Below, piece after piece: positions 3,831-34,353 of a stretch of DNA of 37,039 nucleotides (positions are counted from its first letter, which is position 1; each line of letters begins with the position of its first letter). The DNA is from a virus. The notes beneath the pieces are model-generated. The model did not search any database, was not told the DNA's origin, and worked only from the letters and a program-made list of their open reading frames with translations. A program made the translations under genes and the position numbers. The stretch spans positions 1-37,039 of the IMG/VR virus record IMGVR_UViG_3300045976_000135, one strand, 5' to 3'.

Positions 3831-3867
3831 CTTTACAAAACCTCGCAGGAAAAACATGGATTATAAT
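3831..3867 (+). promoter_or_regulatory. Promoter-like region with CTTTACAAAACC and ACATGGATTATAAT
   Basis: CTTTACAAAACC (3831-3842) repeats the dyad arm found before the preceding gene. It is followed by CGCAGG...ACATGGATTATAAT, with TATAAT at 3862-3867. From CGCA through TATAAT this resembles the four elements near 30.7-34.3 kb (CGCAAGATTTACA-TGGCT-TATAAT). It lies 54 bp upstream of the GTG start of the nuclease gene at 3921, consistent with a promoter for the recombination and polymerase-like genes. Confidence 0.5.
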
Positions 3868-3920
3868 AGAAGGGGACAGAATGTGGTCGATTACAGACCA
3901 TCGATTTTTAGGGAGGTGTC

Positions 3921-4223
3921 GTGGGTAAGCTCGAGCGTGACTACCAGGCTGGTTTGATCGATCGCATCTCCATGCGATTTCCTGGCTGCTTCATCCTCAA
4001 GAACGACGAGCAATACATCCAGGGCATCCCCGACTTGACGATCCTGTATGGCACGTACTGGGTCATGCTGGAAGTCAAGAAGAGCGCGAAAGAGCCGTAC
4101 CGTCCCAACCAAGAATATTATCTCGAGGTTCTTGGCGAAATGAGTTACACCGCCACCATCTTCCCTGAGAACGAGGCGGAGGTGTTGGATGAGGTTCAAT
4201 CAGCATTCGGGATTGAGCGGTAG
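3921..4223 (+). CDS. VRR-NUC-type PD-(D/E)XK nuclease
   Basis: GTG 3921 follows GGGAGG with 4 nt spacing. The 100-residue product has the compact VRR-NUC plan found in phage-encoded stand-alone nucleases: an N-terminal helix with E5, then GIPDL (D38), then VMLEVKKS giving E51-x-K53, then RPNQ before the last helix. These residues would coordinate metal for DNA cleavage, probably of branched or flap structures. It sits between the helicase and a RecB-like nuclease, suggesting replication or recombination work. The next gene starts inside it (4189), 35 nt before its stop. Confidence 0.8.
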   Translation: MGKLERDYQAGLIDRISMRFPGCFILKNDEQYIQGIPDLTILYGTYWVMLEVKKSAKEPYRPNQEYYLEVLGEMSYTATIFPENEAEVLDEVQSAFGIER

Positions 4224-4749
4224 TCATGCACTCTTGAGCCCCAGCAAATACCACTGGGTCAACTACAGCGAAGATCAGATCGATCTCACCATCGTCAAGT
4301 CATTTGCTGCAGCACGAGGCACGGCGCTGCACAACCTTGCCAAAGATCTGATCATCTTGAAGCAGAACCTTCCGGACACCACAGCCACGTTGAACGCCTA
4401 TGTCAACGACGCCATTGGTTTCCGGATGACTCCGGAACAGACGTTGTTCTACTCGAGAAATTGCTACGGCACTGCGGATGCTATCTCGTTCCGTCAGAAC
4501 AAGTTGCGCATCCATGATCTGAAGACTGGTGTGAGTCCTACGTCAGTCACACAGTTGGAAGTGTACGCAGCGTTGTTCTGCCTCGAGTACGACGTCAATC
4601 CGAACGAGATCGAAATGGAATTCCGGATCTACCAAAACGACGAGGTTCGCATCTACGATGGCGATCCTTTGTCGATCTTTAGCATCATTGACAAGATCCG
4701 GTGGGCCGACGCCCGCATCGAGCAGCTGAGGATGGAGGCTTACGGATGA
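4189..4749 (+). CDS. RecB/Cas4-like PD-(D/E)XK exonuclease
   Basis: ATG 4189 has GGAGG (4178-4182) 6 nt upstream, supporting this start despite the 35-nt overlap; a TTG at 4234 is the weaker alternative. The 186-residue protein shows RecB-family motifs: ARGTALH with H48, GTAD with D97, HDLKTG with D110 and K112, and Q122-x-x-x-Y126. It lacks a helicase domain and a visible Fe-S cysteine cluster. It probably degrades or resects DNA ends during phage recombination, with the helicase and VRR-NUC protein as partners. The stop overlaps the next start by ATGA. Confidence 0.8.
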   Translation: MRFNQHSGLSGSHALLSPSKYHWVNYSEDQIDLTIVKSFAAARGTALHNLAKDLIILKQNLPDTTATLNAYVNDAIGFRMTPEQTLFYSRNCYGTADAISFRQNKLRIHDLKTGVSPTSVTQLEVYAALFCLEYDVNPNEIEMEFRIYQNDEVRIYDGDPLSIFSIIDKIRWADARIEQLRMEAYG

Positions 4750-7382
4750 TCATTCCGGAGGACGCAGTTCTCGCGCACTACGGGATTCTCCGTAGGTCGG
4801 GCAGATACCCTTGGGGTTCTGGCGGTCCCGAGAAGGCGAGCAACAAGAGTTTCTTGGGATATGTGGCTCAGCTTCAGAGTCAAGGGCTGAGTGAAGCGCA
4901 GATCGCCGAAGGTATGGGTATTTCAACTACCCAGCTTCGTGCTTCGAAATCCATTGCTCGCAACGCCGAGCGTCAAGCCGATATCAATGCCGCACAGCGT
5001 TATCGTGACAAGGGCATGTCCAACACCGCCATTGCGGAGAAGATGGGCAAGCCTGAATCCACGATTCGTGCGCTCCTTCAGCCGAGTGCCAAGGATCGCA
5101 GCGATGTTCTGCACAGCACCAGCGTCATGCTGAAAGAACAGATTGCACAAAAGAAATACCTCGACATCGGAACCGGTGTTGAAAATCATCTCGGTATCAG
5201 CCAGACCAAGCTTGCCACTGCTGTTGCTGTACTTCAAGAAGAAGGCTACAACGTCTACTACTTGAAGGTGAAGCAGCTGGGCACGGGCAAGCAGACCACA
5301 CTCAAGGTCTTGGCTGCGCCGAGCGTCCAGTATTCCGAGGTGTCACGCAATCGTGCGAACATCGGTCAAATTCGTTCCTTCTCCGAAGACGGCGGACGAT
5401 CCTACATCGGAATCCAGCCGCCACTCTCCATCAGCAGCAAGCGAGTCAAGGTTCGCTACGCTGAAGATGGTGGTGCTGACTCAGATGGCGTTATTCATGT
5501 TCGACCTGGCGTGCCTGACACTTCTCTTGGGAGTGCTCGGTATGCTCAGGTTCGGATTGCAGTCGATGGTACCCATTACCTTAAAGGTATGGCTATGTAC
5601 AAGGACGATCTTCCGGACGGGGTTGACCTTGTATTCAACACAAACAAGAGGAACACGGGCAACAAGCTCGACGCCATGAAGGCGATGAAGGACGACCCCG
5701 AGAACCCCTTCGGCGCCACTGTTCGACAGCGAGTGGATCCGAAGACTCGTAAGGTCACCTCCGTCATGAACATCGTCAATGAAGAGGGCGACTGGGACAA
5801 GTGGTCCAAGAACCTGTCTTCACAGATGTTGTCGAAGCAGAGCCCGGCCTTGGCCAAGCAACAATTGGCCATGACATACGAACGGCGTCAGCGCGAGTTC
5901 GATGAGATCATGAAGTTGACGAACCCCACTGTTCGTCAGAAGATGTTGGAAAGCTTTGCCGATGGCGCGGACTCTGCGGCTGTACATCTGAAGGCCGCTG
6001 CTCTTCCTCGTCAGCGATCGAACGTCATCCTTCCGATCAACAGTCTGAAGGAAACCGAGATCTACGCGCCCAACTTCAGGAATGGCGAACGTGTTGCGTT
6101 GGTTCGCTACCCCCATGGCGGTGTGTTCGAGATCCCGGAACTCACAGTCAACAACAACCATCCCGAAGCGAAGCGTGCTTTGGGAAACGCGAAAGACGCA
6201 GTCGGTATTCATTCGAAGGTGGCAGAACGTCTGTCAGGTGCAGACTTCGATGGCGATACCGTTCTGGTCATCCCGAACAATCAGAAGCGCGTGAAGACCG
6301 CACCTGCACTGGACGGTCTGAAGGGGTTCGACCCGCAGCGTTCGTATCCAGCATATGAGGGTATGAAACGTATGTCGGCGAGAACCAAGGCTACACAAAT
6401 GGGTGAGATCTCCAATCTCATCACTGACATGACGATCCATGGCGCTACCCATGAGGAACTCGCTCGTGCCGTGCGTCATTCCATGGTGGTCATCGATGCG
6501 GAAAAGCACAACCTGAATTGGAAGCAATCGGCTCTCGACAATGGTATCGCACAGCTGAAGTCCAAGTATCAAGGCGGCCCTCGTGCAGGCGCCGCAACCT
6601 TGATCTCTCGTGCTCGGTCGGACATCCACGTTCCTGAAAGAAAGCCCCGCCCTGCAACACAAGGCGGCCCTGTCGACAAGACTACTGGCAAGAAGGTCTT
6701 CGTTCCGACAGGCGCCACCTATGTGAACCGCAGTGGCAAGGTTGTTCTGAAGGGCGAACGCTCGACCAAGCTGGCAGAGACGGACAACGCCCACACTCTG
6801 TCGTCGGGCACTACCATCGAGCGCATCTATGCCGACCATTCCAACAAGCTCAAGGACTTGGCCAACAAGGCACGGCTCGTGGCTGTCAACACCAAGCCGA
6901 ATCCGTACAGCCCTGCAGCTAAAGCCGCCTACGCAAAGGAAGTTGAATCCCTCCGGGTCAAACTAGACACGGCCCAGAGAAACGCGCCTCTTGAAAGACA
7001 AGCCCAGCTTCTAGCAAACGCCGCCGTCCGTGCTAGACAGGATGCTAATCCTGACATGGATGCAATCGAACTCAAGAAGATTCAAGGACAAGAACTAGCG
7101 AAAGCTCGAGTTCGCACAGGCGCAGGCAAGAAGCGCATCGAGATCACGGATCAAGAGTGGGCTGCCATCCAGGCAGGTGCAGTCAGCAACAACACACTGC
7201 AGAAGATCCTGTTGAATGCAGATCAAGACAGGATCAAGGAACTGGCCACACCACGCACCACAATCAAGATGACAGCAACCATGCTGGACCGTGCACGTTC
7301 GATGGACAATCTTGGCTACACACAGGCTGAGATAGCGGATCAGCTAGGCGTGTCACTGACTACACTTAAGGACGCTCTGTAG
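4746..7382 (+). CDS. RNA polymerase-like protein with DFDGD motif and terminal HTH domains
   Basis: This 878-residue protein starts at the ATGA overlap (4746). Near residue 500 it has LSGADFDGDTVLVIP, preceded by VALVRYPHGG and H-rich spacing. This parallels the RAP...H...NADFDGD...V..P block of RNA polymerase beta-prime and the DxDGD loop of YonO/QDE-1 two-barrel polymerases, whose aspartates hold catalytic magnesium. An upstream stretch (YLKGMAMYKDDL) could belong to the second barrel. Residues about 45-115 contain two helix-turn-helix units (LSEAQIAEGMGIS, MSNTAIAEKMGK), and the C-terminus has another (TQAEIADQLGVSLTTL). The N-terminus (LAHYGILRRSGRYPWG) resembles a phage motif also present in the 11555 gene. 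It may be a phage transcription enzyme or, less likely, a non-catalytic regulator. Confidence 0.65.
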   Translation: MIIPEDAVLAHYGILRRSGRYPWGSGGPEKASNKSFLGYVAQLQSQGLSEAQIAEGMGISTTQLRASKSIARNAERQADINAAQRYRDKGMSNTAIAEKMGKPESTIRALLQPSAKDRSDVLHSTSVMLKEQIAQKKYLDIGTGVENHLGISQTKLATAVAVLQEEGYNVYYLKVKQLGTGKQTTLKVLAAPSVQYSEVSRNRANIGQIRSFSEDGGRSYIGIQPPLSISSKRVKVRYAEDGGADSDGVIHVRPGVPDTSLGSARYAQVRIAVDGTHYLKGMAMYKDDLPDGVDLVFNTNKRNTGNKLDAMKAMKDDPENPFGATVRQRVDPKTRKVTSVMNIVNEEGDWDKWSKNLSSQMLSKQSPALAKQQLAMTYERRQREFDEIMKLTNPTVRQKMLESFADGADSAAVHLKAAALPRQRSNVILPINSLKETEIYAPNFRNGERVALVRYPHGGVFEIPELTVNNNHPEAKRALGNAKDAVGIHSKVAERLSGADFDGDTVLVIPNNQKRVKTAPALDGLKGFDPQRSYPAYEGMKRMSARTKATQMGEISNLITDMTIHGATHEELARAVRHSMVVIDAEKHNLNWKQSALDNGIAQLKSKYQGGPRAGAATLISRARSDIHVPERKPRPATQGGPVDKTTGKKVFVPTGATYVNRSGKVVLKGERSTKLAETDNAHTLSSGTTIERIYADHSNKLKDLANKARLVAVNTKPNPYSPAAKAAYAKEVESLRVKLDTAQRNAPLERQAQLLANAAVRARQDANPDMDAIELKKIQGQELAKARVRTGAGKKRIEITDQEWAAIQAGAVSNNTLQKILLNADQDRIKELATPRTTIKMTATMLDRARSMDNLGYTQAEIADQLGVSLTTLKDAL

Positions 7383-7395
7383 GAAGGAGAGAGCG

Positions 7396-7656
7396 ATGCC
7401 GCACATGCTGACCACAGTGGACAACCCTTACAATCCGTTCACTCAGTACGATGAGTGGAGTTCATGGGACGAACGTTCGGGCTACTACACACCACAGTTC
7501 CTGGCCCGCCTCACCATGTCCTCTACTGAGCTGTCGGATGCAGATCAATCTCTTGCGATCGAGCGAGCAATCGATGAGATTGTGAATGAGAATGTTTTGG
7601 GAATCTACAGAAAGGTCGCAGCTCCACCTGACTGGGTCGACGATCTCGCTGCGTGA
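7396..7656 (+). CDS. Conserved small phage protein (TVDNPYNPFTQ family)
   Basis: ATG 7396 follows AAGGAGAG. The 86-residue acidic protein begins with TTVDNPYNPFTQYDEW and later has GYYTPQFLARL and IERAIDEIV. I recall similar short proteins in Firmicutes and actinobacterial siphophages near the terminase region, but their function is unknown to me. It follows the polymerase-like gene by 13 nt and is probably cotranscribed with it. It could be a cofactor of that enzyme or of packaging; context is the only support. Confidence 0.7.
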   Translation: MPHMLTTVDNPYNPFTQYDEWSSWDERSGYYTPQFLARLTMSSTELSDADQSLAIERAIDEIVNENVLGIYRKVAAPPDWVDDLAA

Positions 7657-7806: not shown

Positions 7807-8163
7807 GTGCCAGCAAGGCGAAGAACTCCCTCAGAAAATGTGGGCGCCCCTCGTTCACCGGCCAGGACGCCGCAAGAACAAGAGAATGTACTCATCGATG
7901 CGGCTATCGACCTTGCTCATCGCCAAATTCAAGACGGCACAGCCTCGTCGATGGTCATCACGCACTTCCTGAAGCTCGCATCATCTCGAGAACGACTCGA
8001 GCAGGAACGACTGAGGCACGAGATCGCCCTTGCAGAGACCAAACGCAAGGAGATCGAGTCCAGCATGCATATTGGCGAGCTGATGGAGCAGGCCATCATC
8101 GCCATGAGCAAGTACACGGGCAATACGCCTGCTATCGAAGATGCTGAGTTCGATGAGTACTAG
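7807..8163 (+). CDS. Possible small terminase-like or DNA-binding packaging protein
   Basis: GTG 7807 follows AAAGGAGG. The 118-residue protein has a basic proline-rich N-terminus (MPARRRTP), a helix with DLAHRQIQDGTASSMVITHF, and a long charged helix (LEQERLRHEIALAETKRKEIE). I recall relatives just upstream of HNH and large terminase genes in siphophages. The helix content and position suit a small terminase subunit, but I see no clear helix-turn-helix. The HNH gene begins inside its last codons (8153). Confidence 0.5.
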   Translation: MPARRRTPSENVGAPRSPARTPQEQENVLIDAAIDLAHRQIQDGTASSMVITHFLKLASSRERLEQERLRHEIALAETKRKEIESSMHIGELMEQAIIAMSKYTGNTPAIEDAEFDEY

Positions 8164-30653: not shown

Positions 30654-30685
30654 TCGCAACATTTACATGGCTTATAGTGAGACCA
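30652..30685 (+). promoter_or_regulatory. Promoter-like element copy A
   Basis: AATCGCAACATTTACA, 5 nt (TGGCT), then TATAGTGAGACC. TTTACA is at 30662-30667 and TATAGT at 30673-30678. It starts at the holin stop and precedes the 30701 gene with AAAGGA. It shares most bases over more than 30 bp with copies at 31074, 31742 and 34315. No TTGACA box lies 17 nt upstream of the -10-like box. Confidence 0.7.
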
Positions 30686-31048: not shown

Positions 31049-31113
31049 GATTTCTACAGGGCCTATATTTTTCATTCGCAAGTTTTACAAGGCCTATAAT
31101 GAGACTCGATGAA
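31049..31113 (+). promoter_or_regulatory. Tandem promoter-like elements (decayed copy and copy B)
   Basis: A degenerate copy GATTTCTACA-GGGCC-TATATT (TATATT 31064-31069) is followed 31 bp later by a good copy: ATTCGCAAGTTTTACA-AGGCC-TATAATGAGAC (TTTACA 31084-31089, TATAAT 31095-31100). Both keep the 5-nt spacing. They lie directly after the terminator at 31006-31045 and before the 31125 gene. Confidence 0.65.
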
Positions 31114-31313: not shown

Positions 31314-31342
31314 GAGCCCCATAACACGGGCTCAAAGTTTTT
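31314..31342 (+). terminator. Hairpin with T5, likely terminator
   Basis: GAGCCC (31314-31319) pairs with GGGCTC (31328-31333) around an 8-nt loop, followed after 4 nt by TTTTT (31338-31342). The short stem may give partial read-through into the tiny membrane genes that follow at once. A near-identical hairpin is at 34637. Confidence 0.6.
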
Positions 31343-31741: not shown

Positions 31742-31780
31742 ATTCGCAAGATTTACATGGCTTATAATGAGACCCTACGA
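31742..31780 (+). promoter_or_regulatory. Promoter-like element copy C
   Basis: ATTCGCAAGATTTACA, 5 nt (TGGCT), then TATAATGAGACCCTACGA. TTTACA is at 31752-31757 and TATAAT at 31763-31768. It starts right at the stop of tiny peptide 4 and precedes the 31792 gene with AAAGGA. It is nearly identical to copy D from ATTCGC through CCCTACGA. Confidence 0.7.
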
Positions 31781-32021: not shown

Positions 32022-32051
32022 CCTAGCCCCGCACAGGGGCTTAGGTTTTTT
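32022..32051 (+). terminator. Intrinsic terminator after the 31792 gene
   Basis: CCTAGCCCC (32022-32030) pairs with GGGGCTTAGG (32036-32045) with one bulged base and a 5-nt loop, followed by TTTTTT (32046-32051). Confidence 0.8.
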
Positions 32052-34315: not shown

Positions 34316-34353
34316 TTCGCAAGATTTACAGGGTCTATAATGAGACCCTACGA
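34315..34353 (+). promoter_or_regulatory. Promoter-like element copy D
   Basis: ATTCGCAAGATTTACA, 5 nt (GGGTC), then TATAATGAGACCCTACGA. TTTACA is at 34325-34330 and TATAAT at 34336-34341. It is almost identical to copy C and precedes the 34367 gene. Confidence 0.7.

Follow-up and report, generated by a model that had tools for sequence, protein, structure and literature searches.

A predicted single-chain two-barrel RNA polymerase and its candidate promoter in a widespread phage family

Single-chain RNA polymerases (RNAPs) of phages include YonO, which transcribes late genes and acts on a DNA template (PMC5467207), and P23-45 gp64, which also acts on a DNA template; the promoter motifs of P23-45 are described as AT-rich or GC-rich (PMC10770324). 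Here, we analyzed a complete virus record from IMG/VR, 37,039 bases long (IMGVR_UViG_3300045976_000135; hereafter the window), which comes from a virus of soil bacteria. The subject is an 878-aa protein that, based on its sequence and modelled structure, is almost certainly a polymerase of this single-chain type, together with a repeated intergenic element that may be its promoter. The protein family itself is known; the novelty lies in the candidate cognate promoter.

The predicted polymerase and its family

The original prediction, made from the sequence, described a phage protein with a DFDGD motif and helix-turn-helix (HTH) units at both ends. The open reading frame it named is present exactly at 4746-7382 and encodes 878 aa. 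The protein matched PHROG_4291 over its full length (residues 5-878; 1336 bits, E = 0), which places the block motif far beyond chance. The block was found where predicted, at about residue 500, as an RYP-H segment followed by the aspartate loop, with R454-Y-P-H-G-G leading to L496-S-G-A-D500-F-D502-G-D504-T-V-L-V-I-P (LSGADFDGDTVLVIP). R454, P456, H457, D500, F501, D502, G503, and D504 were invariant in 39 close sequences, IMG/VR relatives among them, and again in 21 sequences that included proteins of Lactococcus and saliva phages with 40-44% identity; conservation of the three aspartates, on which the prediction leaned, therefore held in both alignments. In the 21-sequence alignment, residues Q268, V269, R270, H277, K280, G281, P290, G292, and D294 of the first barrel were likewise invariant. 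The stretch YLKGMAMYKDDLPDGVDLVFNTNK may resemble the RNAP beta subunit block NKGVISK ... MP ... VDIVLNP, which is a tentative lead. Pfam matches and predicted helices place two HTH units at the N-terminus and one at the C-terminus, in agreement with the arrangement proposed earlier, and HTH matches were found in 21 of 21 family members.

An AlphaFold2 model built with the 39 sequences had a mean pLDDT of 77 and a pTM of 0.61. When the model was compared with the PDB using Foldseek, matches with E < 0.001 were solely to QDE-1 (7e-9), plant RDR2 (1e-6), P74-26 gp62 (1e-6), and a Pol IV chain. VIA-align superimposed the model on RDR2 (Z 16.0, 356 residues, 4.3 A), QDE-1 (Z 15.6, 373 residues, 4.2 A), and phage gp64 (Z 12.2, 360 residues, 4.8 A). 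The range aligned to QDE-1/RDR2 (Z 14-16) and to the phage RNAPs gp64/gp62 (Z 12) spans model residues ~223-714 and therefore covers both barrels; the two double-psi barrels that the original prediction called for are thus present in the predicted structure. No crAss-like phage RNAP appeared among the listed Foldseek and VIA matches, which is not evidence either way.

The two barrels differ in their support. The second is strongly supported in the model, where the largest-subunit chains of Pol I-III matched within residues 415-615 (Z 9.4-9.9). Residues 215-350, folded alone, reached a pLDDT of 84; this isolated region matched the first barrels of RDR2, QDE-1, and gp62, as well as other double-psi barrel proteins, weakly (Z 3.5-4.7), and Foldseek returned no significant match for it. 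The case for the first barrel is therefore mainly the whole-model alignment and the invariant residues.

Because the DFDGD motif is invariant, the HTH units are present, and the AlphaFold2 model matches over both barrels, the 878-aa protein is almost certainly a single-chain two-barrel RNA polymerase, and it is very probably DNA dependent. Fold matches and invariant catalytic residues thus support the single-polypeptide polymerase that had been proposed; catalysis and template type, like recognition of the motif described below, are inferred.

The family is already in the databases and is not new. Using tblastn, we identified a family member in 250 phage records, with a match to 80% or more of its length in 249; these include phages of Arthrobacter, Gordonia, Streptomyces, Lactococcus, Curtobacterium, Rhodococcus, and Microbacterium, as well as gut or oral phages. 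The majority of the records listed are annotated merely as "helix-turn-helix DNA-binding domain protein," and most do not name a polymerase; PHROG_4291 itself is labelled "RNA-dependent RNA polymerase." Hundreds of further relatives occur in IMG/VR. When bacterial and archaeal species were scanned with one genome each, 134 stretches encoding relatives were identified. The best 80 of these were mostly contigs of Lachnospiraceae, Oscillospiraceae, and other Bacillota, presumably prophages. Cultured gut Bacillota that carry relatives include [Ruminococcus] torques, Butyrivibrio, Hungatella, and Faecalibacterium; such strains could offer inducible systems.

Among solved structures, the single protein had no match by sequence, and the family profile matched only HTH or designed helical structures. 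The Pfam RdRP (RNA-dependent RNA polymerase) model scored below its curated cut-off for the 878-aa protein (15.3 vs 23.8 bits), with a weak match in 17 of 21 family members. In the open-access literature searched, we found no account of the family as a DNA-dependent RNAP and none of the candidate promoter described below; subscription papers were mostly outside this search.

The candidate promoter and its association with the polymerase gene

By reading the gaps between genes in the window and in two Streptomyces relatives, we found a repeated intergenic element of 30-35 bp, the candidate promoter TCGCA-N5-TTACA-N5-TATAAT-GAGA. The pooled profile shows, in order, TCGCA, five AT-rich bases, TTACA, five bases, TATAAT, GAGA, and CCCC; the search demanded ACA and TATAAT, and the patterns used to fetch loci partly favored TCGCA and GAGA. 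The same outer boxes appear in 16 sites of the window, RosaAsantewaa, and HotFries, which were first picked by (A/G)TGAGAC. Bit scores of the four class A sites in the window (Table 1) come from a matrix that these sites helped to build; the opposite strand of the window had no class A match above 12 bits. Seedless motif discovery independently recovered the motif in RosaAsantewaa (Streptomyces), Gordonia phage Tanis, Lactococcus phage P078, and saliva phage D_HF5_2C, and a variant of it in Lactococcus phage CHPC971. In Correa, the de novo search gave terminator-like sequences instead, and the motif is nonetheless present there. In four annotated genomes, 24 of 24 strict matches were intergenic, although ~92% of the sequence is coding.

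In D_HF5_2C (7854-7959), a motif site ends where a tRNA-like gene begins, and a T-run follows; therefore, the motif acts on transcription. The tRNA-like gene scored 28.9 bits with the Rfam tRNA model, just below the gathering threshold of 29, and ARAGORN reported no tRNA there. An annotated coding sequence (CDS) at 7919 overlaps this gene, and its start is probably annotated too early. No sigma-70-type promoter pair overlaps the window sites on their strand. The motif has no sigma-70 -35 hexamer at 16-18 bp from the -10 element, and its TTACA box lies merely 5 bp from TATAAT; the boxes, ~10 bp apart, would share one face of the helix.

Terminator-like hairpins occur at window positions 31314-31333 and 32025-32041, between small genes with their own motif copies. 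This arrangement suggests short transcription units, with a hairpin count near the shuffle level. At Lactococcus P078 sites 17630 and 22315, the same leader GAGAGGAATATCTGTCTAGAAAGAT follows the motif, ~90 bp before the start codon, and is possibly a repeated RNA.

The motif and the polymerase gene occur together. Of 32 RNAP-carrying records, 29 contain the pattern WACA-N5-TATARTGA, with 108 matches in total (vs 2 for a reversed-pattern control), and the matches of each record lie on one strand only, which is the RNAP strand wherever the RNAP position is also listed. Searching from the motif instead, we found an RNAP match in 27 of 31 long records with the long motif, two of them very weak (G016 and G022; E ~1e-4) and not counted as RNAPs, and in 29 of 33 with the core motif. 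Ten motif records without a convincing RNAP also lack the neighboring exonuclease, and nine of the ten encode a terminase 77-89% identical to that of the window; these records therefore appear to be fragmentary members of the same lineage. No motif match occurred in seven phages that infect the same or related hosts and were verified to lack the RNAP. Among 20 YonO prophages (~2.7 Mb), there were 11 matches, on both strands, vs 7 for the reversed-pattern control, which is near background.

The motif is common to relatives from Actinomycetota, Lactococcus, and saliva and to some clostridial ones. Across 14 whole genomes with RNAP relatives, the strict pattern gave one match on the contig and strand of an RNAP (~9 kb away) and three elsewhere. 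A looser pattern applied near six RNAPs identified seven sites on the RNAP strand and none on the opposite strand (0.6 expected), distributed over three of the six stretches.

A related form of the motif, class B, has AGAAGG after TATAAT. Nearly every one of 41 RNAP loci has such a site ~850-960 bp upstream of the RNAP start and immediately before the nuclease gene; 39 loci score at least 9 of 12, and a coding control of the same length reaches 7-9. The evidence for class B therefore rests on consistent position and the AGAAGG run. In a Butyrivibrio prophage, a site lies ~1 kb before the RNAP gene.

In the gene run behind the class B site of the window, the RNAP start codon at 4746 overlaps the stop of the RecB/Cas4-like exonuclease gene, which ends at 4749. 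Directly after the RNAP gene, an 86-aa phrog_4303 protein (MLTTVDNPY-DPFTQ-DEW) is encoded in actinophages and in the Lactococcus and saliva relatives; it is a candidate partner of the polymerase. The gap at 7657-7806 matches the genome-end sequences of RosaAsantewaa and HotFries (GGGGGAGGGGGTC ... CTGCATCGC); the right end of a linear cos-type genome is therefore joined to its left end in this contig.

Table 1. Positions of predicted features in the 37,039-base window
Feature	Positions	Strand	Details
Class B candidate promoter TCGCAGGAAAAACATGGATTATAATAGAAGGGG	3843..3875	+	upstream of the nuclease-exonuclease-RNAP gene run
Endonuclease gene, in RNAP gene run	3921..4223	+	PHROG endonuclease match; VRR-Nuc in relatives, e.g., RosaAsantewaa
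RecB/Cas4-like exonuclease gene	4189..4749	+	phrog_3953, E 2e-74; overlaps RNAP start codon
Predicted single-chain two-barrel RNA polymerase CDS (PHROG_4291 family)	4746..7382	+	878 aa; ATG 4746, stop 7382
N-terminal HTH unit 1, residues ~34-66	4845..4943	+	Pfam GerE-like 40-62; AlphaFold2 helices 34-45, 50-56, 61-88
N-terminal HTH unit 2, residues ~78-112	4977..5081	+	Pfam HTH_23 82-110, E 3e-9; AlphaFold2 helices 93-100, 104-111
Predicted first (beta-type) double-psi barrel, residues ~223-345, invariant R270, K280, D294	5412..5780	+	
Predicted second (beta-prime-type) double-psi barrel, residues ~420-515	6003..6290	+	designed double-psi barrel 7di0, Z 9.4
DFDGD putative metal-binding loop, residues 500-504	6243..6257	+	invariant in both alignments
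Helices 545-588, putative bridge-helix-like placement	6378..6509	+	AlphaFold2 helices 545-564, 569-588; within Rpb1-aligned 415-615
C-terminal HTH, sigma region 4-like, residues 844-878	7275..7379	+	Sigma70_r4_2 856-875, E 1e-9; AlphaFold2 helices 844-855, 860-867, 871-877
86-aa protein, phrog_4303 (function label unknown)	7396..7656	+	conserved directly 3' of RNAP gene
Class A candidate promoter TCGCAACATTTACATGGCTTATAGTGAGACC	30654..30684	+	44.1 bits; best of 3 shuffles 4.8
Class A candidate promoter TCGCAAGTTTTACAAGGCCTATAATGAGACT	31076..31106	+	46.7 bits
Class A candidate promoter TCGCAAGATTTACATGGCTTATAATGAGACC	31744..31774	+	51.5 bits
Class A candidate promoter TCGCAAGATTTACAGGGTCTATAATGAGACC	34317..34347	+	49.8 bits

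Proposed promoter recognition and alternative explanations

Taken as a whole, the evidence is best explained by a phage DNA-dependent two-barrel RNAP that reads its own 30-35 bp promoter via HTH domains, and we consider this explanation likely. Considered separately, recognition of the candidate promoter by the predicted polymerase through its own HTH domains is on balance probable. We also lean slightly towards a self-contained, sigma-free system, in which one polypeptide would comprise both the catalytic core and the promoter-reading HTH units, and in which a promoter kept across phages of Actinomycetota and Bacillota would drive the polymerase's own gene.

Under this mechanism, the active site would lie between the beta-type (~223-345) and beta-prime-type (~420-515) barrels, with D500, D502, and D504 holding the catalytic Mg2+. 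The two N-terminal HTH units and the sigma-region-4-like C-terminal HTH would replace a sigma factor, and these domains may bind one face of TCGCA-N5-(T)TACA-N5-TATAAT-GAGA, with its boxes ~10 bp apart. The TATAAT/GAGA part would be melted for initiation, with the start in GAGA. Transcription by the polymerase would cover the many small middle genes with class A sites and probably also the gene run that encodes the polymerase itself, starting at the class B site ~0.9 kb upstream; transcription of the late genes may come from read-through past the joined ends or from host RNAP. The first polymerase molecules could come from delivery with the virion or from host RNAP reading TATAAT. Because the motif precedes the RNAP gene itself, virion delivery may apply here; crAss-like phages deliver an RNAP with the virion.

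Several observations weigh against this explanation. The TATAAT box resembles a host -10 element, and the polymerase would be needed before its own promoter could be used, so it would have to arrive with the virion or be expressed at first by host RNAP. No motif site was found before the late genes or, in the window, before the terminase region; the copies stand ahead of middle genes and of the RNAP gene run. Three of the six clostridial prophage stretches (each ~20 kb) lack a clear site, and the first barrel, taken by itself, gives low scores (best Z 4.7). Finally, Lactococcus and saliva relatives share a primase-polymerase, helicase, nuclease, exonuclease, RNAP, and small downstream gene with Streptomyces phages. 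Given this shared ancestry of the replication module, co-occurrence alone does not prove recognition, and the association of motif and RNAP could stem from common descent.

The main rival to recognition by the phage polymerase is use of the motif by host RNAP, with sigma reading TATAAT and a phage activator, on the model of T4 MotA, reading TCGCA/TTACA; the two-barrel enzyme would then transcribe other genes, for example, late genes. This rival accounts for the TATAAT-like box and for the motif-type site of the RNAP gene run itself, where the phage enzyme would already have to be present, and it fits with the transcription of late genes by YonO (PMC5467207). However, conservation extends beyond TATAAT through GAGA(CC), there is no -35 element at sigma spacing, and the box itself varies: four of six RosaAsantewaa sites have TTAAAT or TTATAT, which lack the -11A found in host -10 elements, and a HotFries box reads TGTAAT. 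Moreover, the motif is kept between hosts of different phyla, whereas phages of the same hosts without the enzyme have no motif. We therefore regard use by host RNAP as unlikely, albeit the most serious competitor.

It is improbable that the repeats are operators or start-associated translation elements instead of promoters. Start-associated repeats are known in other actinophages, and the motif sites mostly lie 15-37 bp before a start codon; however, some lie 80-180 bp before the start, one stands directly before the tRNA-like gene, and the motif has a TATAAT core with a conserved start region. Least probable of all is the reading given by the PHROG_4291 label and several GenBank labels, an RNA-dependent RNA polymerase whose templates would be RNAs of the phage or the host: although the best fold matches are eukaryotic RDR/QDE-1 enzymes and 17 of 21 members have the weak Pfam RdRP match, the label most likely arose from fold-level similarity and probably gives the wrong template type, the characterized phage relatives YonO and P23-45 gp64 use DNA templates, and three HTH units of DNA-binding type are conserved.

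Comparison with known systems

The best fold matches of the predicted polymerase are the eukaryotic enzymes QDE-1 and RDR2, which align over both barrels with Z 14-16; these are cellular proteins with a role in RNA interference, and they share only 12-14% identity with the window protein. The non-virion RNAPs P23-45 gp64 and P74-26 gp62 are phage single-chain two-barrel enzymes, as is predicted for the window protein (Z ~12 over 360 residues), and P23-45 has promoter motifs of its own, as the window virus probably does. However, identity to gp64/gp62 is ~15% over the aligned part, and the solved chain of ~590 residues lacks both the ~200 extra N-terminal residues and the C-terminal HTH of the window protein.

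YonO of Bacillus phage SPbeta (Forrest et al. 2017, PMC5467207) is likewise a phage single chain of similar size with an R-x-P-H ... DxDGD block. It is a DNA-dependent polymerase for which two barrels are expected, whereas for the window protein we infer the template type. Unlike the window family, YonO gave no Pfam HTH match. The motif is absent from SPbeta and only near background in YonO prophages. Using HHalign, we compared a profile of 21 family members with a profile of 19 YonO proteins; the catalytic region alone was aligned, without significance (probability 0.7%, E 0.078). For this reason, we do not call the window protein a YonO homologue or count it in the YonO family in the strict sense. 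The YonO-like character suggested by the original prediction thus stands for the catalytic block and, probably, for the fold class, and it does not extend to sequence homology beyond that block; the window protein is probably YonO-like in its working.

The proteins listed under PHROG_4291 or as "HTH DNA-binding domain protein" in Streptomyces, Arthrobacter, Gordonia, and Lactococcus phages belong to the same family as the window protein, and the polymerase assignment would correct the label of ~250 phage genes. If the proposed recognition is true, actinobacteria and lactic acid bacteria would gain a compact, orthogonal pair of polymerase and promoter. In the YonO paper, the promoter recognized by single-chain enzymes and any need for extra factors are left open (PMC5467207); the present family is large, has cultured phages on easy hosts, and unites built-in HTH domains with one strongly conserved candidate promoter, and how one-piece polymerases find their genes is now testable.

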